Source: Natronomonas salsuginis
GTDB taxonomy: Archaea > Halobacteriota > Halobacteria > Halobacteriales > Haloarculaceae
Length of the DNA stretch: 64,000 nucleotides
Assembly: GCF_005239135.1 (NCBI RefSeq)
Contig: NZ_QKNX01000003.1
Span: 124,001 to 188,000 of the forward strand
Direction: 5' to 3'
In this document: positions 6,053-54,031 of the stretch, in pieces
Layout: every line of letters starts with the position of its first letter
Numbering within the stretch: the first letter of the stretch is position 1
Translations under genes and position numbers: made by a program
The notes under the pieces: model-generated
Told to the model about the DNA's origin: nothing
The model's database searches: none
Seen by the model: the letters and a program-made list of their open reading frames with translations, nothing else

Positions 6053-6778
6053 TCAGCGCCCGCGACGGGCGACGGCTTCCAGAAGCTTCGAGAGTTCGGC
6101 CGCGGCCGAATCGAGAAGCTCCTCACCGAGCGCCGCGTCGCCGTCGCGGGGATCGCCGACGACGCCGCTGTCAGTGAACTCGTCGGAATCGTACGCGAGG
6201 TTCGTGCCGGCGACCCACTCGCCCCAGCCGTCGGCCGCTCCGTCGCCGGCCTCGTCGAGTCGATCGTCGCGTATCAGTTCCGGGTGGAGATGGCGGATTA
6301 CGGCGGTTTCGGCCGGGCCGGCGTGACCGAACGCGTCGAAGTCGACCGCGTCGAACCACGTGTAGCCGGCCGCGTAGGCGTCGCCGTCGCGGCTCACCCG
6401 CGCGCACAGCTCGCGGATCGCCTCCGTGTTGCCGCCGTGGCCGTTGACGACGACGATCCGATCGAAGCCGTGAGCGGCGAGACTCTCGACGGTTTCTCGA
6501 ACGTAGCTGCGAAACGTGTCCTCCGAAACCCAAAGCGTCCCGTCGAAGGCGCGGTGTTCCTCGGCGATCCCGACGGGGATCGTCGGGCCGACGACCGGCT
6601 CGTCGCCGGAGTCAGCCGCGTAGCGATCCGCGCCCGCCTCGGCGATCGCCTCGGCGGTCAGTGAATCGACCCCGAGGGGGGCGTGCGGCCCGTGCTGTTC
6701 GGTGCTGCCGACCGGCAACAGCGCGAGCTCTGTTTCGGCGTCTCGGGCGTCGGTCCACGTCGATTCGTCGAGCCGCAT
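6053..6778 (-). CDS. Creatininase family amidohydrolase
   Basis: A 241-residue creatininase-fold metal enzyme starting at 6778 (MRLDESTWTDARD). The metal motif GSTEQHGPHAPLGVDS and the later NGHGGNTEAI are complete. Archaeal family members include ArfB, the deformylase acting on the FAPy nucleotide in riboflavin and F420 synthesis, which is a reasonable candidate role. Plain amidase roles cannot be excluded. It lies 14 nt downstream of L10e on the same strand, suggesting co-transcription. Confidence 0.8.
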   Translation of the reverse strand: MRLDESTWTDARDAETELALLPVGSTEQHGPHAPLGVDSLTAEAIAEAGADRYAADSGDEPVVGPTIPVGIAEEHRAFDGTLWVSEDTFRSYVRETVESLAAHGFDRIVVVNGHGGNTEAIRELCARVSRDGDAYAAGYTWFDAVDFDAFGHAGPAETAVIRHLHPELIRDDRLDEAGDGAADGWGEWVAGTNLAYDSDEFTDSGVVGDPRDGDAALGEELLDSAAAELSKLLEAVARRGR

Positions 6779-6792
6779 AAAATATCGGGGCG

Positions 6793-7326
6793 TTACGCGA
6801 TGAGCAGGTCTTCGCCGCGCTCGACGCGAACGGTGCACGGCGGGGAGATCTTGTTGTACGCGCGGCGGAGCGAGTCCTTCGCGACCGCGGCGTCCTCGGG
6901 GTGACACCAGATGGTAAATAGGCGGTCGTCACGCGGGATTCGGGCGGCCGTGCCGACGATCTTGCCGAACGCCTGCCGCATCCCGTCCGAGACACGGTCC
7001 GCGCCCGCGCCGGTCGCCTGCTTGTTCTCCCGGATGACCTGGTGGGGGAACTTCCGGAGGATCATCTTGTAGTCGCCGTTCTCGCCGAGCTCTTTGAGCA
7101 TGCGGCGGTTCGCCGAGAGCCGTGCGGCTTCGAGCGATCCGTGGCGGATCTGGACCTCCTCGTCGACGATGAGGCTGATCTGAACCTCGTAATCGTCGGG
7201 CTCGGCGTCGAAGTTGCCCATCTTGTACTGGGCGACCTTCGAGCCGGGGATGCCCGTGATGTACTCCCGTCGGGTGTACGAGGGCTTGTCGATGTCCCTG
7301 TACATTGAGGCGGGCTTGTCACTCAT
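6793..7326 (-). CDS. rpl10e: Large ribosomal subunit protein L10e (uL16)
   Basis: A 177-residue protein starting [20 protein letters not shown], the classic archaeal L10e start. It includes the conserved [15 protein letters not shown] segment near residues 121-135. The start at 7326 is preferred over a 175-residue in-frame extension of poor composition. It binds 23S rRNA near the peptidyl transferase centre. It stands alone rather than in a ribosomal operon, with the creatininase gene following closely. Confidence 0.95.
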
Positions 7327-40451: not shown

Positions 40452-41012
40452 CTACTGTGGCAGTTTTCTGAACACTGCGTCGAGGTCCGTGCAAGCAAGA
40501 ACTCGCTCGGCGATCATCACCGAAGCGATGCCGATCGCGATACCCGCCACAGTATCGGACAGAAAGTGGGTACCGAGATAGATCCGCGATACGGCGACGA
40601 CGGCGGCGAGCGTGGCGACCGATCTGAACGGCAACTCGTCGGAGTTCCGAGCCACCATCGCGTACGCCGTGACGGCGGCCGCGTGGCCGGACGGGAACGA
40701 CGTCGTCGGCGTCCCGGCACCGTCAGTCAGACAGACCGGCTGGGTCGGAAACGGGCGCTGGACGACCGTCATCAGGACCGCGACGACCACCGCTGTGATC
40801 GAAAGCGCGATGAGCGTAACCAGGAACTCCTCGCGCCACTCCGCCAGGTAGAACAGTCCGACGACAGCGAGTCCAGCCGCTACGGAGCCCAGTCCGGTCA
40901 CGGACGTCATCAGATTTGTCAGGATTGGGTGGCGTAGCTCGAGGATCAGCTCCACAGTGAGCGCATCGATCGCCAGGACGTATTCGAAGAGTTCGCCGAG
41001 TAACTGCACCAT
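40452..41012 (-). CDS. PAP2-family membrane phosphatase
   Basis: A 186-residue protein with five to six membrane segments. It carries the three PAP2 motifs: VVQRPFP, FPSGHAA and SRIYLGTHFLSD. It dephosphorylates lipid phosphates or polyprenyl pyrophosphates at the membrane. It is first of several membrane enzymes in the island, on the same strand as the CDP-alcohol transferase. Confidence 0.88.
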   Translation of the reverse strand: MVQLLGELFEYVLAIDALTVELILELRHPILTNLMTSVTGLGSVAAGLAVVGLFYLAEWREEFLVTLIALSITAVVVAVLMTVVQRPFPTQPVCLTDGAGTPTTSFPSGHAAAVTAYAMVARNSDELPFRSVATLAAVVAVSRIYLGTHFLSDTVAGIAIGIASVMIAERVLACTDLDAVFRKLPQ

Positions 41013-41069
41013 GGGTCGTCCGAACGGTTCCAGTCGGAGAGTGATATACCCACCCGCCGTCGCCCCGGC

Positions 41070-41537
41070 TCATTCGGCCCGAACGCGGGACGGCAGGAAC
41101 CGATCGGCGGCGAGAGCAGCGAACAACGCAATCCACACGATGACCTCGAGGTAGAACGACGGCGTGCCGAGGTAGTACCAAAAGAACGCTCCTGGAGGGA
41201 TCGCGAGCGGGTCGGCAGATTCGACGAACGGCCACAGCAGGAACAGCGCGTGGCCGGGCCGCCCGTTGATCACGACGTGTATGGCGTCGAGACACAGATG
41301 TGAGCCCCACCCGATCGCGGCGGCCATCCCGGCCCGACCGTACAGTGCGATCGGGACAAGAAGCAAGGCGAGAAAGACACTGTGGCCGATTGAGTGGTAC
41401 AGCTCGACTACGCCGAGCGCCCCGAGTGGCTTATCGATGAGGTCCGGGAGCGCCGCGCCGACGAGCAGCCACGGCGTCGATAACCGGGACACTCTCCCGG
41501 CGACGGCGGCAGCAGCGAGATGCGTCAGAAAGAGCAT
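41070..41537 (-). CDS. DUF457/YdjM-type membrane metal-dependent hydrolase
   Basis: A 155-residue membrane protein. The N-terminus MLFLTHLAAAAVAG, the ALPDLIDKP motif and two later histidine motifs (YHSIGHSVFL and GWGSHLCLDAIHV) match the YdjM/DUF457 family of putative membrane-bound metal hydrolases. It is upstream of the PAP2 gene by 57 nt on the same strand. Confidence 0.8.
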   Translation of the reverse strand: MLFLTHLAAAAVAGRVSRLSTPWLLVGAALPDLIDKPLGALGVVELYHSIGHSVFLALLLVPIALYGRAGMAAAIGWGSHLCLDAIHVVINGRPGHALFLLWPFVESADPLAIPPGAFFWYYLGTPSFYLEVIVWIALFAALAADRFLPSRVRAE

Positions 41538-41564
41538 GTGTGTACTGTCGTCGCGAACGTACTC

Positions 41565-41846
41565 ATACTGTCGGTCACAACTCCGTGAACGATCGGTAGC
41601 GATCGCCGACGTAAACTACCCCATCCTACTCGCTCACGGCTTCTGCGCGCGGGCCGCAGGCCCGCTCGCACGGCCCGAGGCGCGCAGCGCCTCGCTGTCC
41701 TCTCCGGCCGACTCGCGTCGTCCTTCCGATCGGGGTCAGAAGTCCTCGCTCCTTGAGGCCGGAGGCTCCGCCTCGAAACTGCTGAACGACGGGCCCAAGT
41801 CGATCAAATCGCGCAACGGCCCTCAACGTACCATAACCGACAGTAT
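41565..41846. mobile_element. Hairpin-rich element bounded by 11-bp inverted repeats; possible IS605/TnpB right-end remnant
   Basis: ATACTGTCGGT (41565-41575) and ACCGACAGTAT (41836-41846) are perfect inverted copies framing this 282-nt stretch without a gene. Inside, the minus strand can be read up to TAG 41626-41628 as a tail containing GGASGLKERGLLTPI and ending AEAVSE, which recalls haloarchaeal TnpB C-termini. The plus strand has GC hairpins GGGCC-GCA-GGCCC and GGCGC-GCA-GCGCC-like (41650-41695), plus a GAGGC...GCCTC pair near 41757. Similar hairpins occur in TnpB guide-RNA ends. No TnpB catalytic part remains. Confidence 0.4.
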
Positions 41847-42691
41847 CAGGTATTGGTGCGGGGAAGCCGGCCGCTGACGGTGAGGGAGTCCCGGGCGAAC
41901 ACGGCCAGCGACGGCGCGAGCACGATCGGCGCGACGGTCCAGACGAGATCAGTCGGCGTCGACGGGACGAGCGCGATCGTAATGAAGGCCATCTGAACAC
42001 CTGCGAGATACCTCCCGAGGTCGCTGTCGGGGCGATCGAACACGGGACGGTCACGGAGGCGCCGCCAACGAATGCCCGCGAGAAAGACGTATCGAGCGGC
42101 CGAAATCGAGAGATACCAGATCGGTAACAGACCCCACAACACCGCTAACAGCGGGGCGGCAACGAAACCGAAGGTGTCGAAGGCCGTATCGAGGCGAGCT
42201 CCAAGAGCCGTCTGTTGGCCGACGCTCCGGGCGACGGTGCCGTCGAGTTTGTCGAGGACGGCGCCAACGCCGTAACACAGTGCCGGGACCCAGGCGAGAT
42301 CCGTCGTAGCCGGGACGACGACGAACCCAGCCACGACCGCATAGAGCGCCCCCCGGAGCAGTGTAAGCGTGTTCGCCAGCCCGAACAGGCGACGCCGGAC
42401 GCCACCGGTCAAGCCCACGGTGTCGACGCTGTACCCCACGTACCAGAGCTGTCCCGCCCAGCAGATCCCAGCGACTACGGCCGGAGAGACCAGCAGCTGT
42501 TCCGTCTCGTCGAGTGGGAGAACCCCCCAAAGGACGGCAGCCAGACAGAGCGCGGCGAACGCCGGCAGACCGACCCCGAGACCGACCGAGACTGACCGCT
42601 TACGCCGCAGTTCAGCCATCACCGCCTCCCGGTCCGCGCTGTCTGGGCCGCAGCCGTCGTCGTGTCGAGGGGAACGAAACCCCGACACCAT
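41846..42691 (-). CDS. CDP-alcohol phosphatidyltransferase family protein
   Basis: A 281-residue membrane protein (about seven segments). It has the CDP-OH-P motif D-G-x2-A-R-x8-G-x3-D-x3-D in LDGTVARSVGQQTALG followed by ARLDTAFD. It joins a CDP-activated lipid (here CDP-archaeol or similar) to an alcohol head group. The acceptor is unknown. The start may be 42691 or the ATG at 42619 (MAELRRKRSVSVG), which looks equally good. Its stop lies inside the right inverted repeat of the preceding element. Confidence 0.85.
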   Translation of the reverse strand: MVSGFRSPRHDDGCGPDSADREAVMAELRRKRSVSVGLGVGLPAFAALCLAAVLWGVLPLDETEQLLVSPAVVAGICWAGQLWYVGYSVDTVGLTGGVRRRLFGLANTLTLLRGALYAVVAGFVVVPATTDLAWVPALCYGVGAVLDKLDGTVARSVGQQTALGARLDTAFDTFGFVAAPLLAVLWGLLPIWYLSISAARYVFLAGIRWRRLRDRPVFDRPDSDLGRYLAGVQMAFITIALVPSTPTDLVWTVAPIVLAPSLAVFARDSLTVSGRLPRTNT

Positions 42692-42779
42692 CGAAATCGT
42701 TCATTCGGAATACCCGTAAGGCGATTAGAGGAGACATCGGTTAAAACGCGAGTGAGGCGGCAAAATCCATGACTACGGG

Positions 42780-43169
42780 CTACCGCAGCAAGACGACGAG
42801 GACGGCGACGAGAACGACCTGTGCGACCTTGTCGACGGCGCCGAGCGTGCCAATATCCGCCGGGAACGATTTCGGACCGGCGGCGAAGTTGAGATAGTAC
42901 CACAGGACGATCTGGAGCAGCGTGAACGGGATCCCGGCGGCGTAGACCGCCCGCCGACGGCGATCGAGGACGACGAGTACGATCCCGCCAAGAAAGCCCA
43001 ACCCGGCGAGGATGAAACTGATGCTCATCGCCGAGGGGGACATACTGATGCTCATTCTAACCCCGAGCAGAACGTGTATAACGGCGGAGACCAGCGCCGC
43101 GAGGATACCCACCCAGTGGGGGCCGCGCAACGATTCTGTGCTGAATCCCTGGGTTTCGCTCGTTGCCAT
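42780..43169 (-). CDS. Small four-helix membrane protein, 129 aa
   Basis: Starting at 43169 (MATSETQGFSTESLRGPHWVG), the 129-residue protein has four membrane segments separated by short loops, with RRRRA after the second. It resembles a recurrent haloarchaeal membrane family of unknown role. The upstream frame to 43499 overlaps the next gene and is discarded. Confidence 0.7.
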   Translation of the reverse strand: MATSETQGFSTESLRGPHWVGILAALVSAVIHVLLGVRMSISMSPSAMSISFILAGLGFLGGIVLVVLDRRRRAVYAAGIPFTLLQIVLWYYLNFAAGPKSFPADIGTLGAVDKVAQVVLVAVLVVLLR

Positions 43170-43218
43170 ACCGCATATATGATACGAGATGACATAGTTG
43201 TACTGCAAAACAGGCGGG

Positions 43219-45216
43219 CTATCGATCGAAGTCAGGATCCCGGAGGGTCTCGAGGCGGGCACACGCCTCCGGGGGCAGCCGTTCGGCAGCCGCGGCCAGA
43301 TTCGCAACGACGTGTGACGGCGTGGTACTGGCAGGGATCGGAACGATACCCTGTGTGACGTTCCACGCGAGGACGACGCCGGCCGGTGAGAGCCCGCAAT
43401 CGGCGGCGATCTCCGCCAAGACCGGCTCCTCGAGGAGACCGGGGGCCGACAGCGGCGAGTGAGCGACGACCCGGATACCGCGCTCGTGACAGAACGCAAC
43501 GAGTTCGTGCTGTGGTCGATACGGATGGCGTTCGATCTGAACGAGGGCCGGCCGGACCGTACCGGTCTCGAGAATCGTTTCCAGTTGCGTCCGCGAGACG
43601 TTACAGACGCCCAGAGTGCGTGCCCAGCCGCGGTTGTGGGTCTCTTCCAGGTTCCGCCAGGCGGTCGAGAGCGGGACGTTCGCCGCTTCTAGATCACCGT
43701 CGTCGTCATTGGGGAAAGTCAACGCTTCCTGTTGCTCGATCGGTTTCTCGGCGAGACGGGAGAGTTCACCGCGGTAAGCCAGCGCCGACGGCCAGTGCAG
43801 CGTGTAGCAGTCGAACGCGTCGATACCGAGTTCCGAGCGGCTGCCCGCACACGCTTCGAGCAGGTGCTCGCGGCGGTGATTGGTGCGCCACGCTTTCCCG
43901 ATGATAAAGAGGCGCTCGCGATCTGGCGTGCCAGGGGCGGCCAGTACGTCCCCGATCCGGTGTTCGTTGCCGTACAGTTCCGCGCTGTCGAGGAGCCGAT
44001 AGCCGGCGTCCAGGGCGGTGACGATCGAATCGATCCGATCGATGTACTCCCCGTTGCGGTAGCGCGAACAACCGAACCCGATCGATGGGAGGCGGAGTGA
44101 TCTGGGGCTGTCGGAAGGCAGATGTCGTCCCGGCGGAGTGACGACCGGCTCTGGAAGGGAGTCACTCGTCACACCGTGTGCGGGAACCGGGATCGGACCG
44201 CCGTCCGCTGCAGCCGTCTCGATGGCGTTGCAGACGGCAACAACGTGTGCACCCCGTTGACCGCCGGATCTCGAGGGCGTTCCGTCGGCGACGCTTGTCG
44301 CGAGTCGCTCGACGGCGTCGAGATACGAGAGTGATTCGGCGGGAGACTGCGGCGGCACGGTCGTGTATTCACGGCCGAGACGGCCGAACTGAACGTCGTC
44401 GGTAGATGATTCCATCGCACCGGTTCCCCGAAGATACAGCGATCCGTCGTCGCCGTGGAGTTCGAGGCCGTAGAACTCCCGGCTCCGGTGAGGCGCATAG
44501 AGGCTCGCCGTCAACCGGACGGTCGGTCCCGAGGCGAACGCGAGGGTGGCCTCGACGTGGCTCGGCGCGGTCGGCCGCCTCGCTTCACGGTCGGGCCAGA
44601 GGTGAAGCGCGTCGGCGACACGGACGCGCTCGACGGGGCCGAACCACGAGACGAGGAGCGAAAGTGGATACACGCCGCCGTCGTACAGCGGGCCGATCTC
44701 CAGGAACGATTCGGGACGGTCGTGCCAGTCGGTGACCCGACCGACGTGAGCATGGGCGTAGCCCAGTTGGATGGGGCCGAGCCGCCCGTCCGCGAGGAGT
44801 CGTGCTGCCCGGCGCTGGGGAGGGCCCCGCGACGTCGTCGGCGCGCATCCGAGTGCCAGTCCCCGGCGGCGGGCCATCGCCAGCAACTCGCCGGCCGTGT
44901 CGCCGTCGAGCGCCAGCGGCTTCTGCGAGAAGACGTGTCGATCCGCCGAGAGCGCCGCCCGCGTCACCGACGCGTGGGCGGCGTGACTCGTCAGGTTGAC
45001 CACCAGCGGCGCGTCGACCGTCTCGAGAGCCACTTGCAAGTCGGTGAACGAAGGACAGACGTGGTCCTCGGCCAGCACTGCCGCCCGCTCGCCGTCAAGG
45101 TCACAGACGCCGGCCAGCGACAGCGGACTGTCGGACAGTCCGGCCGCGTACTCGGTCGCTATCGCCCCGGCGCCCACGAACAGACAGTTCACGACGGTAC
45201 CAGGACGGCCGGACAT
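43219..45216 (-). CDS. Gfo/Idh/MocA oxidoreductase fused to aldo/keto reductase
   Basis: A 665-residue two-domain protein. Residues ~8-345 are a Gfo/Idh/MocA dehydrogenase: Rossmann VGAGAIATEYAAGL, SQKPLAL in place of the usual EKP, then the beta-sheet substrate domain. Residues ~375-665 are an AKR barrel with the catalytic tetrad visible (Asp and Tyr in RLLDSAELYGNE, Lys in IIGKAWR, His in YTLHWPS). Two NAD(P) redox sites on one chain suggest successive oxidation and reduction of a sugar or polyol. It is divergent from the sulfatase-like gene across 52 nt. Confidence 0.9.
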   Translation of the reverse strand: MSGRPGTVVNCLFVGAGAIATEYAAGLSDSPLSLAGVCDLDGERAAVLAEDHVCPSFTDLQVALETVDAPLVVNLTSHAAHASVTRAALSADRHVFSQKPLALDGDTAGELLAMARRRGLALGCAPTTSRGPPQRRAARLLADGRLGPIQLGYAHAHVGRVTDWHDRPESFLEIGPLYDGGVYPLSLLVSWFGPVERVRVADALHLWPDREARRPTAPSHVEATLAFASGPTVRLTASLYAPHRSREFYGLELHGDDGSLYLRGTGAMESSTDDVQFGRLGREYTTVPPQSPAESLSYLDAVERLATSVADGTPSRSGGQRGAHVVAVCNAIETAAADGGPIPVPAHGVTSDSLPEPVVTPPGRHLPSDSPRSLRLPSIGFGCSRYRNGEYIDRIDSIVTALDAGYRLLDSAELYGNEHRIGDVLAAPGTPDRERLFIIGKAWRTNHRREHLLEACAGSRSELGIDAFDCYTLHWPSALAYRGELSRLAEKPIEQQEALTFPNDDDGDLEAANVPLSTAWRNLEETHNRGWARTLGVCNVSRTQLETILETGTVRPALVQIERHPYRPQHELVAFCHERGIRVVAHSPLSAPGLLEEPVLAEIAADCGLSPAGVVLAWNVTQGIVPIPASTTPSHVVANLAAAAERLPPEACARLETLRDPDFDR

Positions 45217-45268
45217 ATATTCCCTCGGCGGAGGCGTTTAGTCGACACGGCGCGGACCGACCAACGTG

Positions 45269-46159
45269 ATGGAACCGGGAATGAGCCGGCTCGGCACGGG
45301 TTATCTGCGATGTCTGCAGGCGATCGGCCGGCGGATGGACTACGGCGAGAACGTTTACGACCGCGAGTGGGACGTGCTCGTCGTGCTGGACGCCTGCCGG
45401 GCGGATCTGCTGCGGTCGGTCGCGACCGATGTCGATTTTCTCGACGCCGTCGAAACCGTTCGGTCGGTCGGGAGTTCCTCCTCGGAGTGGCTCGAGAACA
45501 CCTTCGGCGGCCGCGCCGAGACCGGCCGGACGGTCATGGTCACCGGAAACACCTGGACTGATCGGTACCTCGAGGCAGACGCGTTCGCTGCCCTCGACGA
45601 AGTCTGGAAGTATGCCTGGGACGACGATCTCGGTACCGTGCGGCCGGCGACGATCACCGACCGAGCGATCGCGCTCGATCGTGAGCATGATCCCGATCGG
45701 CTGGTCGTCCACTACATGCAACCCCATCACCCGTTCGTTCCGGATCCGATCGCGGGCGACGACGGCATGGCTCGGACCGGCAGCCACAGCAACGACGCGA
45801 ACCCGTGGGTGTTACTCCGCCGTGGCGAAATCACGACCGAACGGGTTCGATCGGCCTACAGAGCGAACCTCGAGTACGTGCTCGCCGAGGTACGGACGCT
45901 CGTCGAGAACGTTACCGGTCGTGTCGCGATCACCGCCGATCACGGCAATCTCTTCGGGGAGTGGGGTCTCTACGGTCATCCGATGCACACGCCGGTGCCG
46001 GCTCTGCTCGCAGTTCCGTGGGCGGAGACGGACGGCCAGGGTCGACGGAGCTCCGTCCCGACCCTCGAACCTCCGGAACCGCTCCCAGTGGGCCGTATCT
46101 ACGGTGCCGAGACCGACAGCGAGCGGCTGGCGGCGCTGGGGTATTTATCAACCCAATAA
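45269..46159 (+). CDS. Sulfatase/alkaline phosphatase superfamily protein
   Basis: A 296-residue protein with the fold signature VLVVLDACRADLL at residues ~35-47, the metal/His motif VHYMQPHHPFVP, and ITADHGNLFGEWGLYGHP near residue 220. Such proteins are common in haloarchaeal surface-glycan loci and may transfer or remove phosphate, sulfate or phospho-head groups. No signal peptide. The start is ATG at 45269, with a GTG one codon earlier. A 174-nt gap separates it from the MDR gene. Confidence 0.8.
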   Translation: MEPGMSRLGTGYLRCLQAIGRRMDYGENVYDREWDVLVVLDACRADLLRSVATDVDFLDAVETVRSVGSSSSEWLENTFGGRAETGRTVMVTGNTWTDRYLEADAFAALDEVWKYAWDDDLGTVRPATITDRAIALDREHDPDRLVVHYMQPHHPFVPDPIAGDDGMARTGSHSNDANPWVLLRRGEITTERVRSAYRANLEYVLAEVRTLVENVTGRVAITADHGNLFGEWGLYGHPMHTPVPALLAVPWAETDGQGRRSSVPTLEPPEPLPVGRIYGAETDSERLAALGYLSTQ

Positions 46160-46210
46160 CGGGGTGAGATCCGTCGTTGTGATTGAGGACCACAGGGCCG
46201 GGAGCCGTAA

Positions 46211-46224
46211 TCTTTAGTTAAAGA
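46211..46224. promoter_or_regulatory. AT-rich palindrome upstream of the MDR operon
   Basis: TCTTTA-GT-TAAAGA, a 6-bp perfect dyad, is the only AT-rich run in the 174-nt gap 46160-46333. It lies 110 nt before the MDR start, so any transcript from it would carry a leader of roughly 80 nt. Promoter or operator role inferred. Confidence 0.35.
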
Positions 46225-46333
46225 CCCACATAGATTCGACTGTGAATCACCAGGGGAAACGCCGACGCGATCGATCGCCACATCCAACCCCTCGGATCGA
46301 GCATCCCAGGAGACCGGAGCGGCGTGAGCGGGG

Positions 46334-47323
46334 ATGACTCGGCGGGCACTGTACTTCACCGGGCCTCGATCGGTGGAAGTCCGAACCTCGTCAATCCCTG
46401 ATCCGGACGCTGGTGAGGTCCGGGTTCAGACGAGACGGTCGACTGTCAGTCCGGGCACGGAGATGCTGGTCTACCGTGACGAGGTCCCTCCGGAACTGGT
46501 GGTCGACGAGACGATCGACGCATTCGATAACACGTTTTCGTACCCGCTGCAGTACGGCTACGCCTCTGTGGGGCGCGTGACGGCCGTCGGCGAGGGCGTC
46601 GACGACGAGTGGCTCGAACAGCGGGTGTTTGCGTTCAACCCCCACGAGAGTCACTTCCTCGCTGACCCCGAGACGCTCGTCCCGACGGCGCTGTCCGACG
46701 AGCGAGCCCTCCTGATCCCGAACACCGAGACGGCAGTCAACTTCGTCATGGACGCGCGGCCCCGGATCGGCGCGCGGGTCGTGGTGTTCGGCCAGGGACC
46801 GATCGGGCTGTTGACGACGGCGCTGCTATCTGAGTTCCCGCTTTCGGAACTCGTCACCGTTGATCGCTACGAGCCCCGGCGGCGGCTCTCGGAATCGCTG
46901 GGTGCCGACCGCGCCGTCTCGCCCGACGCCCTCGGGAGCGCGATCGAGGCGGACGCCGACATCGCGTTCGAACTCTCCGGAAACCCGACGGCACTCGACG
47001 ACGCTATCGACGTCGCGGGCTATGCGGGGACGGTCATCGTCGGGTCCTGGTACGGCACGAAGGACGTGGCGCTGGATCTCGGCGGAACGTACCATCGGAG
47101 CCACATCCGCCTCCGGAGCAGCCAAGTAAGCCGGATCGATCCCGACCACGCCGACCGGTGGGACAAGGACCGCCGGCTGGACGTCGTCCGGTCGTGGCTG
47201 GCCGAGCACGATCTCTCGGCGCTTTTCACCCACGAGTTCGACATCGAGCACGCGGCCGATGCCTACCGACTGCTTGAGGAACGACAGGACGAGGCCGTCC
47301 AGATCGTGTTCACCTACGAGTGA
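46334..47323 (+). CDS. MDR (medium-chain) dehydrogenase, atypical zinc site
   Basis: A 329-residue GroES/Rossmann MDR protein. At the usual catalytic-zinc Cys position it has VSPGTEML, so the Cys is absent, and no structural four-Cys lobe is seen. The cofactor loop FGQGPIGLLTTALL is intact. This layout recalls BchC-like and other zinc-independent MDRs. It is the first gene of the tight MDR-PTPS-GT-MTase operon; its TGA overlaps a possible PTPS ATG (TGATG at 47321-47325). Confidence 0.85.
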   Translation: MTRRALYFTGPRSVEVRTSSIPDPDAGEVRVQTRRSTVSPGTEMLVYRDEVPPELVVDETIDAFDNTFSYPLQYGYASVGRVTAVGEGVDDEWLEQRVFAFNPHESHFLADPETLVPTALSDERALLIPNTETAVNFVMDARPRIGARVVVFGQGPIGLLTTALLSEFPLSELVTVDRYEPRRRLSESLGADRAVSPDALGSAIEADADIAFELSGNPTALDDAIDVAGYAGTVIVGSWYGTKDVALDLGGTYHRSHIRLRSSQVSRIDPDHADRWDKDRRLDVVRSWLAEHDLSALFTHEFDIEHAADAYRLLEERQDEAVQIVFTYE

Positions 47324-47367
47324 TGCGAGAACGATCCTCCGGATTTAGGTGCCCGCCACCCGTTGTC

Positions 47368-47751
47368 GTGTCCGTGTACTCCACGACGGTGCTGACCGAT
47401 TTTGTGGCACAGCACTACCTCACAGTTCCGGATCCGGGCCCCGAGGGAGTCCCGCATTCCCATCACTTCGAGGTGGAACTGACCTTCTGCGGTCCCGAAC
47501 TGAACGAGTACGACTACCTCGTCGACATCGACGACGCCGAGGCTGCACTCGCGTCACTGGCCGATCGGTACCGCGATACGCTGCTCAACGATCTTCCGGA
47601 GTTCGAGGGCTACAACCCGAGCGTCGAACGCTTTGCCCGCGTCATTTTCGAGCGCGTGACCGCGGCCGTGACCGACGAGACCGTCACCGAGCTGGCTGTG
47701 ACGGTCTGGGAAGACGACGCGGCGGCTGCCACATACGATGTTTCGGTATGA
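47368..47751 (+). CDS. 6-pyruvoyltetrahydropterin synthase (PTPS/QueD) superfamily, atypical active site
   Basis: T-fold protein of 127 residues if it starts at GTG 47368; the ATG at 47323 adds 15 unusual residues but is coupled to the previous stop. Zinc histidines are kept (VAQHYL and PHSHHF). The C-terminal catalytic Glu is in VWEDDAAAATY. The nucleophilic Cys four residues before HxH is Glu (EGVPHSHH), as in PTPS-III enzymes. The Asp-His of the LDHxxLN motif reads YRDTLLND. So classical PTPS or QueD chemistry is unlikely, while binding of a pterin-like substrate is plausible. ATGA overlap with the glycosyltransferase. Confidence 0.85.
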   Translation: MSVYSTTVLTDFVAQHYLTVPDPGPEGVPHSHHFEVELTFCGPELNEYDYLVDIDDAEAALASLADRYRDTLLNDLPEFEGYNPSVERFARVIFERVTAAVTDETVTELAVTVWEDDAAAATYDVSV

Positions 47752-48812
47752 GAGTCGGACTGACGCTGTACGGTGACATCGACGAGCGCTCCGGGGGGTT
47801 TCGTTACGATCGAAAACTACTCCAGGGGCTTCGAGCGGCCGGCGATACCGTTGAACTCGTTGAGTTGCCCTGGCGGCGATACCCTCGGGGACTCCTCGAC
47901 AACGCGTCGCCACGGCTCCGGGATCGATTGGATGTCGATGTCGATGTCATGCTGCAGGACGAACTCGCCCATCCGTCCCTGCTCCGGGCAAACCGTCAGT
48001 TGCCGTATCCGATCGTCAGCATCGTCCATCACCTGCGAGCGAGCGAATCGAGACGTCTGTCCCCGTTGTACCGCGCCATCGAGCGCCGGTATCTCGGAAC
48101 GGTCGACGGCGCAGTCTGCAACAGCACGACGACCAGAGACATCGTTACCGGCCTCGGCGTCGATCCTGGATTGACTGCCGTCGCACCGCCCGCCGGCGAC
48201 CAGTTCGATCCCGACCTCGACGACGGGACGATCGAGCATCGCGCACGGGAGCGACCGCTTCGGGTAGTCTTCGTCGGCAACGTTACCCCCCGAAAGGGGC
48301 TGAAAACGCTCATCGAGGGGCTGTCGGCCGCCGAAACCGACGTGAAACTGACCGTCGTAGGACGATCGGCCGACGAGCGATACGCCGCCGCGGTGCGACG
48401 CAGCGTCCGCCGAGAGGGTCTCGCCGACCGCGTTGATCTGGCGGGCGAACTCTCCGAGGAGGAACTCGAAACGGTGCTCCGGTCGAGTCACGTCCTCGCA
48501 GTGCCGTCCCGATACGAGGGGTTCGGCATCGTCTATCTGGAGGGGATGAGTTTCGGGCTCCCGGCGATCGCCTCACGAGCGGGGGGAGCAACAGATGTCG
48601 TCACCGACGGCGAGACGGGCGTACTCGTCGATCCGGGGAACTCAGCGGCGATCGCGGGGGCGCTGACGCGGTTCGACGCTGACCGCGATCGGCTGGCCTC
48701 GATGGGTAAAGCCGCCAGACGACGATACGAATCGCATCCAGACTGGCGCGAGACGACCGCCCGCGTCCGCGGGCTGCTCGAAGCCGTCGCCGCTCTCGAG
48801 GTGATACCATGA
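47748..48812 (+). CDS. Glycosyltransferase family 4
   Basis: A 354-residue GT-B glycosyltransferase. The N-terminal domain opens MRVGLTLYGDIDERSGGFRY. The C-terminal domain has VVFVGNVTPRKGLKTLIEGL and the EX7E motif in YEGFGIVYLEGMSFG, followed by VTDGETGVLVDPGN. Retaining transfer from a nucleotide sugar is expected; the acceptor is unknown. No signal or anchor, so the acceptor may be soluble. It overlaps the genes before and after by 4 nt (ATGA). Confidence 0.92.
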   Translation: MRVGLTLYGDIDERSGGFRYDRKLLQGLRAAGDTVELVELPWRRYPRGLLDNASPRLRDRLDVDVDVMLQDELAHPSLLRANRQLPYPIVSIVHHLRASESRRLSPLYRAIERRYLGTVDGAVCNSTTTRDIVTGLGVDPGLTAVAPPAGDQFDPDLDDGTIEHRARERPLRVVFVGNVTPRKGLKTLIEGLSAAETDVKLTVVGRSADERYAAAVRRSVRREGLADRVDLAGELSEEELETVLRSSHVLAVPSRYEGFGIVYLEGMSFGLPAIASRAGGATDVVTDGETGVLVDPGNSAAIAGALTRFDADRDRLASMGKAARRRYESHPDWRETTARVRGLLEAVAALEVIP

Positions 48813-49705
48813 CGGGTGACTTTCGGCGCTATCTTCGGGCGAAACGGACCGTCGACGACCGTGCGATCGATCAACGGCTCGTCGGAACGCTTCGCGAACG
48901 CCTCCGGAACCGAACGGAAGCCGGTGACGGCCCGCTTCGAGTCCTCGAAGTCGGGGCTGGCATCGGGACGATGCTCGCCCGCCTCGTCGAGTGGGACGTA
49001 CTCCCGCCGGGAGAGATCCGATACACAGCGGTCGATATCGAATCGGACACCATCGAAGCCGTCGTGCCGTACGTCCGAGAGTGGGCCGCCGAACGATCGG
49101 TTTCGGTCTCCGAGACGGACCGGATCGTTCTCGAGGGATCGAACCGTCGTATCGAACTCGAACCGGTAGTCTCGGAGGCCGTCGCGCACGCCGAGCGAAC
49201 GACTGGCGAGTGGGATCTGGTCGTCGGCAGCGCGCTGCTGGATCTCCTCGAACTCGAGGCGCTGGATCGGTTGCTCGATGCGCTTTCGCCCGGCGGACTC
49301 TGTTATTTCCCCATCACGTTTGACGGTGGGACTCGGTTCCGGCCGGAACTCCCGGGCGACCGGACGATCGAGCGTCACTACCACGCTCACATGGACGCGA
49401 AACCGGGGGGAAGCAGTCGGGCGGGTGGAGATGTCGTCGCTCGGCTACAGGGAGCCGTCGGGGTGACGCTTCTCGGCGTTGCCGGCTCGGACTGGGTCGT
49501 CCGCCCTATCGAGGGAACGTATCCTGCCGACGAGGCGTACTTTCTCCGGCACATTCTCGATACGATCGAGGAAGCCGTCGGTGAGGTGACCGACGATACC
49601 GAGACGCTCGAAGCGTGGCTGGCCGAGCGTCGGAGACAGATCGATTCCGCCGAGTTGTGCTACTTTACGCATCAACTCGACGTCCTGGGGTGCGTCAAGA
49701 AATGA
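48809..49705 (+). CDS. Class I SAM-dependent methyltransferase
   Basis: A 298-residue methyltransferase with SAM motif I RVLEVGAGIGTMLARLVEW and motif II TAVDIES. Its C-terminal part (about 90 residues beyond the core) ends SAELCYFTHQLDVLGCVKK. The substrate is likely the product of the preceding glycosyltransferase or its precursor. It is last in the four-gene operon, with a 56-nt gap to the convergent tatC. Confidence 0.85.
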   Translation: MTGDFRRYLRAKRTVDDRAIDQRLVGTLRERLRNRTEAGDGPLRVLEVGAGIGTMLARLVEWDVLPPGEIRYTAVDIESDTIEAVVPYVREWAAERSVSVSETDRIVLEGSNRRIELEPVVSEAVAHAERTTGEWDLVVGSALLDLLELEALDRLLDALSPGGLCYFPITFDGGTRFRPELPGDRTIERHYHAHMDAKPGGSSRAGGDVVARLQGAVGVTLLGVAGSDWVVRPIEGTYPADEAYFLRHILDTIEEAVGEVTDDTETLEAWLAERRRQIDSAELCYFTHQLDVLGCVKK

Positions 49706-49761: not shown

Positions 49762-50535
49762 TTAGCGGCGGACCCACCGCAACACCAAAAGCGTCGCCTC
49801 GAAGAGCCCGATCATCGTCGCGGACACGATGATCGGTGCCATTCCCGTCGGATCCGGGCTGAAGAGGAAGGCGATGCCGAGGAACGCGCCCCAGAAGTAC
49901 AGCCGCTTCGCGGCCAGCCACGCGCGGGTCGTCAACCCCATCATGATCGCCAGCATCATGAACAGCGGGATCTGGAACACCGCGGCGAACAGCCCCATCA
50001 TCAACACGATGAGATCGAACGTGTCGGTGAGGCCGAACGCGATCGTGGCCGCGTCCTGCGAGTAGGTCAGAAAGTACGTGAAGATCGCCGGCAGGACGAG
50101 AAAGTACGCGAAGAGGACGCCGAACACGCCCAACACGAGACTCGTCGGGACGGAGGCGAGATAGTATCGCCGCTCTTGGGTGTACAGCCCCGGGCGCATG
50201 AACAGATACGTCTGATAGACGAAGACGGGGAGGCCGACGACGAAGCCGGCGAGCGTCGCGACTTTCAGCCGCGCGAGGATGAGCCCCAGGGGGTGATACA
50301 CCCGCGGGCGGGCGATGTCCCCGCCCGGAAGCACGGAGTACCACAGGAAGTTGATGATCCGATCGCCAAACGGGAAGACGATCCCGGAGATGATCGCCAT
50401 GACGACGAGGACGATGCCCAGCCGGTAGACCATCTCCTCGATGTGGTCCGCCAGCGGCATCTCCTCGTCGCTCTCGGGGCCCTCGCCGACGAACCCCTCG
50501 TCGACGTCGTACCCCCCGTCGGCCGTCTCTGCCAT
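49762..50535 (-). CDS. tatC: Twin-arginine translocase subunit TatC (single-domain form)
   Basis: A 257-residue TatC with six membrane segments. The N-terminal cytoplasmic end has ADHIEEMVYRLG, matching the TatC signal-peptide site (HxxELR-like) with Glu kept. A proline-rich first periplasmic loop and LPVFVYQTYLFMRPGLYTQERRY follow. Tat is the main export route in haloarchaea. Confidence 0.93.
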   Translation of the reverse strand: MAETADGGYDVDEGFVGEGPESDEEMPLADHIEEMVYRLGIVLVVMAIISGIVFPFGDRIINFLWYSVLPGGDIARPRVYHPLGLILARLKVATLAGFVVGLPVFVYQTYLFMRPGLYTQERRYYLASVPTSLVLGVFGVLFAYFLVLPAIFTYFLTYSQDAATIAFGLTDTFDLIVLMMGLFAAVFQIPLFMMLAIMMGLTTRAWLAAKRLYFWGAFLGIAFLFSPDPTGMAPIIVSATMIGLFEATLLVLRWVRR

Positions 50536-50598
50536 TGGCGTGCATCCGTCCCCGGCGTTTGTAAGCCTTCTCTCTCGGGTGAGTGTCGGGGGCGTCGG

Positions 50599-50955
50599 CT
50601 ACACGACGACGACGCGGAGCAACCACAGCGTCCCTATCCCGCTCGCGATCGTCGCGAACACGTTCTCGGTCCGCCACGCGACGACGACGGCGACGGTCCC
50701 GGCGGCGATCCGTTCGTCGAGCACGGTCGCCGAAAGCGACGGCTCGATCGTGACGATCGCCGGAATAGCCAGCGCTGCGAGAACGGCCGCCGGGACCAAT
50801 CGGAGCACGCGTTCGACGACCTCGGGGACCGATTCGAGCCGACCGAACAGGTAGATGAACGAGAGCCGGATCGCGTAGGTCGCGAGGGCGAGAACGACGA
50901 TGACGAACCAGATGGCCGCCGAACCGTAGCCGCCCGCGCCGGCGCTCAGGCTCAT
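50599..50955 (-). CDS. azlD: AzlD family branched-chain amino acid export subunit
   Basis: A 118-residue membrane protein with four segments (ALATYAIRLSFIYLFGR near the start), typical of AzlD. The start at 50955 overlaps the azlC stop (ATGA). Works with AzlC in efflux of branched-chain amino acids. Confidence 0.85.
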   Translation of the reverse strand: MSLSAGAGGYGSAAIWFVIVVLALATYAIRLSFIYLFGRLESVPEVVERVLRLVPAAVLAALAIPAIVTIEPSLSATVLDERIAAGTVAVVVAWRTENVFATIASGIGTLWLLRVVVV

Positions 50956-51638
50956 CGGTTCCCCCACGCCTCGACGGCGAGGCCGATGGCGATCCCGGAG
51001 ACAGTGCCGACGAAGAGCCCGAGGTTGAACGGGACGCCGGCCGCGAGCAGCGCGCCCGCGCCGGAGACGATGGCCGCGACGATCGTCGGAGGATCCTTCA
51101 GCGACGGGACGAGCAACGCGATAAATACGAGCGGGATGGCGAACGAGAGTTCGAGTTCCGGTGGCACGCCCGTCCCGACGAGGACACCGGCGGCGGTCCC
51201 CACCGACCAGACGACCCAGGAGGCGAGCCCGAGTCCGGCGTAGTACCGGAGTCGGTCGCGCGAGTCGTCGCGCGAGAACTCTGCGATCGACATCGCGTAC
51301 ACCTGATCGACGAGCAGGTGCGCCAGCGCCGCTCGGACGCGCCGGCTGTACCGGGTGAAATGCGGCGCAATCGAGGCGGAGTACATGAGCATCCGGAGGT
51401 TGACCACGACGGCGGTGCCGATCACGACGAGCAGCGGGGCCGAATTACTGAGCAGTTCGAACGCGGCGATCTGGGACGCGCCCGCGAAGACGATGACAGA
51501 CATCACGACCGCCTGCACGGGGGAGAGGCCGGCCTCGATGGCGGCGATTCCGGTGATCATCGCGAACGGGACAATCCCGAGGTAAAACGGGACCGAATCG
51601 CGAATACCGGCGCGGAGATCCGGATGGATGTCGATCAT
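50952..51638 (-). CDS. azlC: AzlC family branched-chain amino acid export permease
   Basis: A 228-residue membrane protein. RDSVPFYLGIVPFAMITGIAA, FAGASQIAAFELL and NLRMLMYSASIAPHF are classic AzlC sequences. Forms the larger subunit with AzlD. The pair lies between the two tatC genes. Confidence 0.9.
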   Translation of the reverse strand: MIDIHPDLRAGIRDSVPFYLGIVPFAMITGIAAIEAGLSPVQAVVMSVIVFAGASQIAAFELLSNSAPLLVVIGTAVVVNLRMLMYSASIAPHFTRYSRRVRAALAHLLVDQVYAMSIAEFSRDDSRDRLRYYAGLGLASWVVWSVGTAAGVLVGTGVPPELELSFAIPLVFIALLVPSLKDPPTIVAAIVSGAGALLAAGVPFNLGLFVGTVSGIAIGLAVEAWGNR

Positions 51639-51817
51639 CGCGTACGGTCCCGAGGGAGGCGAGTTCGTCCCGAGACGACAGGATTCGGACGTATCGGCAT
51701 TTCACGGGAGCCGGTACCAGTAGACATCAGCCGACGACGCGCACGGCGGGGTGAAAAGTCTTGTATCCCGAGGACTAACGGAAAAGGTTGATAACCGCGA
51801 GCGAATAACCGTTCACC

Positions 51818-54031
51818 GTGTCTAGCGCCGTAGACGACGATGTCGTCCGGACGGTCTCGGAGGGTCGCGCACACCTCGGCGCGCTGCTTCGAACCGCACA
51901 GAAGCATCTCCAGAAGGTGTTCATCGTCTTCGTGATCGGCTTCCTCGGGACGTTCACCGTATTGCGGCTCTACATCTGGGATATCCTCAAGCGGGATCTC
52001 AACGCCCACCCGGACATCGTCGTCGTCGCCATCACGCCCTTCGAGGTCATCCTCCTGCAGGCGAAGATCGGACTGGTCGCCGGGCTCATCATCATGTTCC
52101 CAGCGCTCGCGTACTTCGGCCGCGATTCGCTGAAACAGCGCGGGCGCTGGCCGGAGAACCTCCCGCGATGGAAGGGGGCCGCGTTCGCGCTGATCAGCGC
52201 GACGCTCTTTCTCGGCGGCGTCGCCTACGCCTACAACCTGTTCTTCCCAATCATGTTCGCGTTTCTCGCGGACAACGCCGTCGGAGCGGGCTTTCAGCCG
52301 ACCTACTCGATCTCGATGTGGGCGCAGTTCATCTTCCTTCTCTCTCTGTCCTTTGGACTCGCTGCGCAGCTGCCGCTGTTCATGAGCACGCTCTCGTACA
52401 CGGAGATCGTTCCCTACGAGACGTTCCGCGACAAGTGGAAGTACGCGGTCGTCGCAATCTTCGTCTTCGGCGCGCTGTTTTCGCCGCCAGATCCCTTCAC
52501 GCAGATCATGTGGGCGGTGCCGCTGGTCGTGCTGTACGGGGCCTCTCTCTACGTGAGCAAGATCGTCGTGACGACGAAACGATCGAGCGACTCGATCGAT
52601 CTGCGGGGGACGGCGCGCGACCGGTGGAACGTCCTCCTCGGGCTGTTCGTGGTGGGACTCGCCCTCGTGTACGCCTTCTATACCTACGGCGGCTACCTCG
52701 CTGTCAACGACGTCCTCGCGTCCGCCGGGTCCAGTTATCGGTTCCTCGCGCCGGGCGCGGGGATCGGACTGGCCGAAACGACGTACATCGCCGTCGTCGG
52801 ATCGCTCTACGGACTCGGCTTCGGGCTCGTCGGATTCGCTTACTTCGTCTACGACGGGCTCGAAGCGCCCGCGGCAAGCGTCGTGGGCGTCGATCCCGAA
52901 GATATCGACGTGGCGGAGCTCGACCTCGACGGCATCCGGTCGGCCCCGGACGCGGTGTTCGATGCGATGGAGGAGTCCGAGGCAGTCGCCCTCGCCGGAC
53001 GGGCGATGGACGATGAGGATGTCGACCGTGCGCAGGCGATCCTCGATCGGTTCGACGCGGTCGACACCGACGCGGAGGGCGACGAGGCCGAAGCGACCAA
53101 AACAGCCGAATCTGACGACGCCGAATCGACCGCCCCCACGGCCGAAACCGGCGGAACGGCCGAAACTGAGGAGATCGACGACAGCCGGATCATGGCGGCC
53201 CGCGGGGCAGGCATCCTGGGCGCGTTCAGCGAGGACGAGATCGACGAGGACGACATCGGCGGCTACGCCTACGATCTCAAGTTCGTCTTCGATAGCATCA
53301 CCTCGAAATCGTTCCGACTGGTCGGACTGTTCATGGCCATCATGGCCGGGACGTTCTTCGTGCTGTATCAGGGCGGGATCGGCCGTCTCCACGAGCAGTT
53401 CGTGCGCGGCATGCCCTCCGAGTTCGCCGCCGAACAGGTGTCGATCGTCACGCTCCATCCGGTCGAGGCGCTCATCTTCATGATCAAGGTCGCCGTGATC
53501 TTCGGCCTCGCCGCCGTCGTGCCGCTGCTCATGTACTACGCGTGGCCGGCCCTGAAAGAGCGCGGCGTGGCCCGCGGCGATCGGCGCGTCCTCTTGCTGT
53601 GGGGCGGCAGCCTCCTGACCTCGATGGCGCTCGGGAGCCTGTTGGGCTTCCTCTACGTCGCCCCCTCGGTCATCTCGTGGCTCGCGACGGACGTGTTGCG
53701 CGCCGAGATGGTGATCGCCTACCGGATCAGCAACTACGGCTGGCTGGTGTTTTTCCTGACCGTCGGGATCGGGATCCTCGTCATGGTGCCCGTCACGATG
53801 CTTCTCTTTCACCGCGGCGGGATCGTCCCCTACGCGGCGATGCGCGGCCGGTGGCGGGAGGTCTCGATCGCCGTGCTCGCGGCGGGGGCCTTCCTGTCGC
53901 CGCGGGGAGTCTTCACCATGTTCCTGCTCGGCCTGCCGGTGATCGCCACCTACGGCCTCGGCCTCGGATTGCTGTGGCTCTACACGCTCGGCGGTCGGCG
54001 GGTGCCGGAAGCGACCGAGCCGGCCGACTGA
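51818..54031 (+). CDS. tatC2: Double TatC (TatCt), haloarchaeal fusion
   Basis: A 737-residue protein with two TatC-like halves (~15-310 and ~470-730) joined by an acidic cytoplasmic linker (~370-455) and extra membrane segments. This is the haloarchaeal TatCt. The first half starts RAHLGALLRTAQKHLQ without the Glu of the HxxEL motif. The start is GTG at 51818. It is divergent from azlCD across 179 nt with no obvious element beyond AT-rich runs near 51780-51815. Confidence 0.93.
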   Translation: MSSAVDDDVVRTVSEGRAHLGALLRTAQKHLQKVFIVFVIGFLGTFTVLRLYIWDILKRDLNAHPDIVVVAITPFEVILLQAKIGLVAGLIIMFPALAYFGRDSLKQRGRWPENLPRWKGAAFALISATLFLGGVAYAYNLFFPIMFAFLADNAVGAGFQPTYSISMWAQFIFLLSLSFGLAAQLPLFMSTLSYTEIVPYETFRDKWKYAVVAIFVFGALFSPPDPFTQIMWAVPLVVLYGASLYVSKIVVTTKRSSDSIDLRGTARDRWNVLLGLFVVGLALVYAFYTYGGYLAVNDVLASAGSSYRFLAPGAGIGLAETTYIAVVGSLYGLGFGLVGFAYFVYDGLEAPAASVVGVDPEDIDVAELDLDGIRSAPDAVFDAMEESEAVALAGRAMDDEDVDRAQAILDRFDAVDTDAEGDEAEATKTAESDDAESTAPTAETGGTAETEEIDDSRIMAARGAGILGAFSEDEIDEDDIGGYAYDLKFVFDSITSKSFRLVGLFMAIMAGTFFVLYQGGIGRLHEQFVRGMPSEFAAEQVSIVTLHPVEALIFMIKVAVIFGLAAVVPLLMYYAWPALKERGVARGDRRVLLLWGGSLLTSMALGSLLGFLYVAPSVISWLATDVLRAEMVIAYRISNYGWLVFFLTVGIGILVMVPVTMLLFHRGGIVPYAAMRGRWREVSIAVLAAGAFLSPRGVFTMFLLGLPVIATYGLGLGLLWLYTLGGRRVPEATEPAD

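Follow-up and report, generated by a model that had tools for sequence, protein, structure and literature searches.

A group of genes in Natronomonas salsuginis, in which an atypical PTPS-fold protein is encoded among an oxidoreductase and enzymes of glycosylation and methylation, raises the question of what these proteins make and from which precursor. We analysed a window of 64,000 nt of this haloarchaeon (GCF_005239135.1, NZ_QKNX01000003.1:124,001-188,000; genome 99.94% complete), for which a sequence-only reading had proposed that four plus-strand genes at 46334-49705, lying next to a sulfatase-like gene and a divergent Gfo/Idh-AKR fusion, serve a possible new pathway to a pterin-like glycoside. 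All of these are real open frames that carry the claimed domains and are conserved, although the sulfatase label falls just under the Pfam cut-off. The four genes encode an MDR oxidoreductase of 329 aa (46334..47323, plus strand; Pfam ADH_zinc_N), an atypical PTPS/COG0720 protein of 125 aa (47374..47751, plus strand; PF01242), a GT4-family glycosyltransferase of 354 aa (47748..48812, plus strand; Pfam Glycos_transf_1, 5.6e-36) and a class I S-adenosylmethionine-dependent methyltransferase of the small-molecule type, 298 aa in length (48809..49705, plus strand). We found that these four genes are conserved together in archaea and bacteria and are associated with enzymes opening the imidazole ring of GTP.

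The MDR is 'zinc-binding' by its family name; in an alignment with other cluster MDRs, SPGTE and GYA occupy the usual catalytic Cys and His places of zinc-type MDRs, and its Rossmann motif is GQGPIG. The glycosyltransferase has the EX7E motif of retaining GT4 enzymes, as EGFGIVYLE. Pfam matches to the methyltransferase were weak, and its assignment comes from an AlphaFold2 model (pLDDT 94.5) whose Foldseek matches are class I methyltransferase folds that give no hint of the substrate.

A conserved gene set beside GTP ring-opening enzymes

Of 194 Halobacteria genomes sampled evenly, 114 carried the PTPS subfamily at a threshold of E <= 1e-36, with matches clearly separated from the QueD-like ones at 1e-7 and weaker. 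We examined its surroundings at 113 loci, the window included, some of which are truncated where a contig ends. The MDR was found no more than 3 kb from the PTPS gene at 93 loci, the methyltransferase at 85, the GT4 gene at 83 and a CDP-alcohol phosphotransferase at 38, and the order of the block is kept in most of 37 close haloarchaeal loci. The proposed pathway had been made to depend on conservation of the four-gene order, and that order is conserved both across Halobacteria and in bacteria.

The conserved neighbour found de novo beside the haloarchaeal PTPS is GTP cyclohydrolase III (GCH III), its identity confirmed by PF05165. It lies within 3 kb at 38 of the 113 loci, where chance would give about 0.2%, and within 8.5 kb at 41, in 21 genera, with GCH III-MDR-PTPS-GT4 as the common order at linked loci. 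In 18 of the 41 linked genomes a further GCH III lies outside the cluster, besides the copy in it, and genomes with two copies are enriched among PTPS carriers (20/114, versus 4/80 without PTPS; p=0.013). Because the GCH III tree needs about seven switches between cluster and non-cluster copies, at least three of them forced by well supported branches, the gene appears to have been recruited repeatedly. Among five sampled members of one genus (G049, G078, G088, G139 and G144), all use GTP cyclohydrolase II (GCH II) and four are without GCH III; the sole member with the PTPS cluster is also the sole member with GCH III, located in the cluster. We rejected GCH II as the haloarchaeal partner, since it occurs in only 5 of the 194 genomes, from a single genus. 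In the PLSDB annotation, a Haloarcula halophila plasmid carries the order Gfo/Idh - CDP-alcohol phosphotransferase - 'GTP cyclohydrolase IIa' - MDR - PTPS - methyltransferase. On a plasmid of Natrarchaeobaculum sulfurireducens (L233), GCH III and the MDR overlap by 4 nt, no PTPS is annotated and an IS5 transposase comes next; this pair looks like a decaying cluster.

Further candidate partners were considered in haloarchaea. A second, cluster-linked RibD was rejected, as most genomes have one RibD_C match and none lies near PTPS. Creatininase genes were found near just 4 of the 113 loci, and the creatininase at 6086-6826 of the window, tried as ArfB, was rejected as MftE-like. The N. salsuginis cluster contains no cyclohydrolase, and the genome has a single housekeeping GCH III (G000:C1:584174-584902).

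Outside the Halobacteria, the same order was found in Streptomyces, Micrococcales, rhizobia, Methylosinus, Thiodictyon and one non-haloarchaeal archaeon, and the block is also present in Microbacterium, Arthrobacter and Palleronia; bacterial relatives were surveyed in plasmid records only, so this breadth is a lower bound. When the window MDR was compared with 72,556 plasmid records, nearly all MDRs that followed the haloarchaeal matches adjoined a PTPS of the type of Streptomyces coelicolor SCO6650, the exceptions being in Nonomuraea and Rhodococcus. The window MDR, GT4 and methyltransferase are homologous to their counterparts in the bacterial clusters. A Streptomyces neighbourhood of PTPS, MDR, glycosyltransferase and methyltransferase genes beside a GCH II paralogue, which the sequence-only reading had mentioned, does exist in plasmid clusters; in one, the PTPS is 95% identical to SCO6650 and the order is MDR-PTPS-GT4-methyltransferase. 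Eight bacterial clusters contain GCH II (RibA) and most a RibD-family protein, which in the five scanned had the reductase domain only; the CDP-alcohol phosphotransferase is found in bacterial clusters as well.

In both Streptomyces clusters with RibA, Met occupies the position of E. coli RibA Tyr105 and a creatininase-family protein that scores MftE-like is adjacent, whereas all six proteobacterial cluster RibA proteins have Tyr at this position and no creatininase in the cluster. Reportedly, the Met form of GCH II makes FAPy, so that a deformylase is then needed (Spoonamore and Bandarian), and SCO6655, the GCH II paralogue of S. coelicolor, is said to make FAPy through this Met switch. Creatininase-family enzymes can act as FAPy formamidases (PMC9478397). 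In the non-haloarchaeal archaeon, which belongs to the same phylum as the Halobacteria, the order is methyltransferase - GCH II - MDR - PTPS - GT4 with a creatininase nearby, and the GCH II is of the Tyr type and lies 2 nt ahead of the MDR. The GTP-derived substrate that had been suggested for the N. salsuginis genes is thus strongly supported by the cyclohydrolase III and II genes in the clusters.

Other features of these loci were observed in passing. The in-operon GCH II of the non-haloarchaeal archaeon (L238:7016-8206) has about 200 extra C-terminal residues that gave no Pfam match. A cytochrome b561 gene adjoins RibD in rhizobial and Thiodictyon clusters (L049, L050, L197-L199 and L042), and the rhizobial clusters additionally carry a flippase-like protein and a sulfatase. 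Two Streptomyces plasmids (L045 and L195) have a solitary SCO6650-type PTPS gene with no cluster partners, near genes for sigma factors, cupins and MBL-fold proteins.

An atypical member of the PTPS family

An automatic, NCBI-style annotation as '6-carboxytetrahydropterin synthase' would make the window PTPS a QueD, providing carboxytetrahydropterin for archaeosine. The protein does match PF01242 (90.2 bits against a cut-off of 22.4), has weak similarity to the QueD model and shares with QueD, a PTPS-I enzyme, the tunnel fold, the Zn-ligand pattern and the anchor Glu; QueC lies near PTPS at 2 of the 113 loci, both in the same genus. However, its motif reads ExxxHSH and so departs from the CxxxHGH signature of QueD, with Glu at the catalytic Cys position, and the catalytic Asp-His dyad of QueD (LDHHYLND) is lost, the window protein reading YRDTLLND. 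Haloarchaea also have separate, canonical QueD proteins that read CSRPHGH, and these do not group with the cluster PTPS. Across the 194 genomes the presence of PTPS is independent of QueC (86/28/62/18, Fisher p=0.86), and the N. salsuginis genome contains no second PF01242 protein and no QueC. Because the signature residues, the QueC co-occurrence and any QueC or other PTPS in the genome are all missing, we rejected the QueD identity, which is largely refuted and which we regard as exceedingly improbable; these results indicate that the automatic name is wrong for these genes. As a separate observation, QueC was found neither in N. salsuginis nor in three sampled congeners, and N. salsuginis is also without canonical QueD, yet has MptA/FolE2; without QueC, either preQ0 for archaeosine has to be salvaged or archaeosine has to be made in another way.

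Other known signatures do not fit either. That of PTPS-II (CxxxxxHGH) is absent, the motif region having no Cys, and that of PTPS-III (ExxHGH) is absent because the Glu stands one residue more distant, at the QueD Cys position. The AlphaFold2 model of the protein (pLDDT 93.5) confirmed the T-fold and matched SCO6650 best (3d7j, TM 0.88), which is also the closest solved structure by sequence (1.1e-05 in a single-sequence search, 3.8e-16 with a profile). In a phylogenetic tree, the bacterial SCO6650-type and haloarchaeal PTPS proteins group together, apart from QueD (96/89), so that profile, fold and tree all point to the SCO6650 type as the nearest relative. SCO6650 reportedly has no PTPS activity. 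The two groups differ at the metal site: the haloarchaeal proteins keep the Zn-ligand histidines H14, H28 (nearly invariant) and H30, with HSH, whereas the bacterial relatives have lost one of them (HGA), and the haloarchaeal PTPS is for this reason a distinct subgroup of the SCO6650 type. Glu113, at the pterin-anchor position, is invariant.

The PTPS start and the extent of the block

The four genes had been described as one operon whose members abut or overlap by 1-4 nt. The ATGA overlaps of PTPS with GT4 at 47748 and of GT4 with the methyltransferase at 48809 are exact. The PTPS frame is open back to GTG 47320, on which the 4-nt overlap with the MDR depends, but this codon is unused by relatives, whose PTPS begins at [M/V]Y-x-TTV, corresponding to GTG 47374 here, 54 nt inside. 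This comparison places the probable PTPS start at 47374 instead of 47320, so that the MDR and PTPS genes probably do not overlap. In aligned upstream DNA of haloarchaeal loci we found a promoter-like box, CCTCCGGATTTAGGTG (47336..47351, plus strand; TATA/BRE-like), with TTTA about 28 nt ahead of the 47374 start. Of the 37 loci compared, most keep the box, including those of Halorubrum, where no MDR lies upstream of PTPS, and it looks like a separate leaderless promoter of PTPS. Since PTPS appears to own this promoter, PTPS, GT4 and the methyltransferase would form a tight unit from which the MDR can be transcribed apart, and a single four-gene transcript is doubtful.

The haloarchaeal gene block as a whole spans 40452-49705 of the window, with genes on both strands. 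Upstream of the MDR are an alkaline-phosphatase-superfamily (sulfatase-fold) hydrolase or transferase (45266..46159, plus strand; PF00884 at 23.5 bits, under the 25-bit Pfam cut-off) and the 665-aa fusion of a Gfo/Idh/MocA domain (residues 9-343) with an aldo/keto reductase (AKR) domain (residues 379-658; 43219..45216, minus strand; both from Pfam), found within 8.5 kb of PTPS at 24 and 31 of the 113 loci, respectively. The conserved block reaches left of these genes. It includes a small DUF7475 protein of 132 aa missed earlier (42780..43178, minus strand; PF24287, 1e-14), found within 8.5 kb at 68 loci, and the CDP-alcohol phosphotransferase (41846..42691, minus strand; PF01066, 9.3e-17), found at 65 and carrying a complete DxxDGxxAR...GxxxDxxxD motif. 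Beyond them lie a YdjM-like membrane protein (41070..41537, minus strand; weak Pfam match), a frequent neighbour seen at 19 of the 113 loci, and a PAP2-family phosphatase (40452..41012, minus strand; PF01569), an occasional one seen within 8.5 kb at 7.

On the other side of the block, at 49762-54031, an AzlC/AzlD-like pair stands between two TatC-type genes of 257 aa and 737 aa, labels that come from a reading of the sequence; the TatC pair beside the cluster is kept in several Natronomonas-like loci. In nine Halorubrum loci (L009, L011, L013, L014 and L027-L031), which have no MDR ahead of PTPS, a distant MDR of about 50% identity lies past the CDP-alcohol phosphotransferase, within the block. 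In Haloarcula marismortui ATCC 43049 (pNG700, L039, G153:C7:104289-104662), a frameshift breaks the frame of the cluster PTPS, and both plasmid deposits of this PTPS align from residue 37 onward only.

A possible branch from the riboflavin and F420 trunk

We consider it reasonably likely that the cluster encodes the biosynthesis of a small molecule derived from GTP via ring opening. The product is probably a sugar-bearing, methylated compound. The pathway would branch off the riboflavin/F420 trunk, in which GTP would be converted to FAPy and, by a deformylase, to APy, which a RibD/ArfC reductase would turn into 2,5-diamino-6-ribitylamino-4(3H)-pyrimidinone 5'-phosphate, the putative branch point. 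In archaea, reduction of APy precedes deamination (PMC3403918), and the 2,5-diamino compound is for this reason a normal intermediate in archaea and not in bacteria. Haloarchaeal clusters would then need no RibD, because the branch-point compound is already made for riboflavin and F420, while bacterial clusters would carry a deaminase-free RibD reductase because bacteria deaminate before reducing. The anchor Glu of the PTPS family recognises a 2-amino-4-oxo-pyrimidine edge, and we place the branch at the 2,5-diamino compound because this edge exists only before deamination. From there, the MDR may oxidise a side-chain hydroxyl, and the PTPS-fold protein may grip the 2-amino-4-oxo-pyrimidine edge via Glu113 for a ring closure or rearrangement, possibly to a pteridine. 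GT4 would attach a sugar and the methyltransferase a methyl group, and the CDP-alcohol phosphotransferase may attach the resulting compound to a lipid or polyol through a phosphodiester bond. N. salsuginis, with no cyclohydrolase in its cluster, would use its housekeeping GCH III.

Several observations weigh against this proposal. No cyclohydrolase is adjacent at 72 of the 113 haloarchaeal loci, the window included, and in 23 of the 41 linked genomes the GCH III is the only copy and must therefore serve riboflavin and F420 too. At about a quarter of the loci, some of them truncated by a contig end, GT4 or the methyltransferase was not found near PTPS, so the tailoring varies, and the loss of the PTPS catalytic residues means that its reaction cannot be read from the sequence. 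In addition, some archaea outside the haloarchaea have MptA/FolE2 close to the cluster, which would fit a true pterin precursor.

That last point bears on the alternative in which the product is a true pterin, made from the dihydroneopterin (cyclic) phosphate of MptA/FolE2 and perhaps a charged haloarchaeal pterin, of which phospho- and sulfohalopterins are known. The PTPS fold, the retained anchor Glu and the haloarchaeal Zn-ligand histidines are in keeping with it, as are the presence of MptA in the N. salsuginis genome and of the cluster in H. marismortui, the source of sulfohalopterin. Yet the linked cyclohydrolases are of types II and III and lead to riboflavin-type pyrimidines rather than dihydroneopterin, MptA/FolE2 is near none of the 113 haloarchaeal loci, H. 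marismortui ATCC 43049 has a disrupted PTPS frame, and the bacterial relatives have lost a Zn ligand. We regard a true pterin as rather unlikely, and the 'pterin-like' product of the sequence-only reading is not supported by the linked enzymes.

The presence of GCH III could also be explained if the cluster were an accessory of riboflavin/F420 synthesis itself, with which it has the first enzymes in common; a COG0720 subfamily, PTPS-IV, has been mentioned as an F420 enzyme on the strength of an unpublished result (PMC5041015). But RibD_C occurs in 194/194 and GCH III in 189/194 Halobacteria genomes and PTPS in just 114, neither FO nor riboflavin synthesis involves GT4, the methyltransferase or the CDP-alcohol phosphotransferase, and the second GCH III outside the cluster in 18 of the 41 linked genomes argues against it; this explanation is unlikely. 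Still less probable is that the PTPS-fold protein acts on a sugar, in a pathway to surface glycans or glycolipids: GT4, Gfo/Idh, sulfatase-fold and CDP-alcohol phosphotransferase neighbours, together with the flippase-like protein and sulfatase of rhizobial clusters, would suit such a pathway, but GTP cyclohydrolases and a RibD reductase have no role in a sugar pathway and Glu113 is invariant.

A more specific form of the GTP-derived pathway, which we put forward only as a long shot, would yield a membrane-anchored, glycosylated and methylated phospholipid with a pteridine or diaminopyrimidine head, made via the CDP-alcohol phosphotransferase (and, in bacteria, the flippase-like protein) and perhaps acting as a redox carrier served by the cytochrome b561 of several proteobacterial clusters. 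If true, this would be a new lipid cofactor class common to archaea and bacteria.

Compared with known systems, the cluster shares GTP ring opening with the archaeal riboflavin/F420 trunk (GCH III, that is ArfA, with ArfB and ArfC), as well as a reductase-type RibD in its bacterial versions, but we saw no deaminase, lumazine synthase or FO synthase in the clusters, and the MDR, GT4, methyltransferase and CDP-alcohol phosphotransferase are added. Cyanobacterial pterin glycosides, in which a glycosyltransferase modifies biopterin, offer a proposed likeness in the action of a glycosyltransferase on a GTP-derived heterocycle; they differ in cyclohydrolase type, and the cluster adds an MDR, a methyltransferase and a CDP-alcohol phosphotransferase. 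Relatives of SCO6650 have the same gene order, at part of the loci together with a cyclohydrolase, which is GCH II in Streptomyces clusters and GCH III in haloarchaeal ones. The Streptomyces version had been partly noticed earlier, through the SCO6650 structure and the cyclohydrolase SCO6655 of S. coelicolor. COG0720 includes subfamilies with no assigned function (PMC5041015). Open-literature searches on the cluster, SCO6650 and halopterins returned nothing usable, and we found neither the cross-domain cluster nor its product described there, which does not prove absence.

The proposed pathway would be a GTP-derived one common to archaea and bacteria and carried by over half of the sampled haloarchaeal species, with differing cyclohydrolases recruited beside it. 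It offers a reason why secondary clusters contain FAPy-forming cyclohydrolases and a PTPS homologue without catalytic residues (SCO6650), and a short list of candidate substrates to test follows from the cluster.

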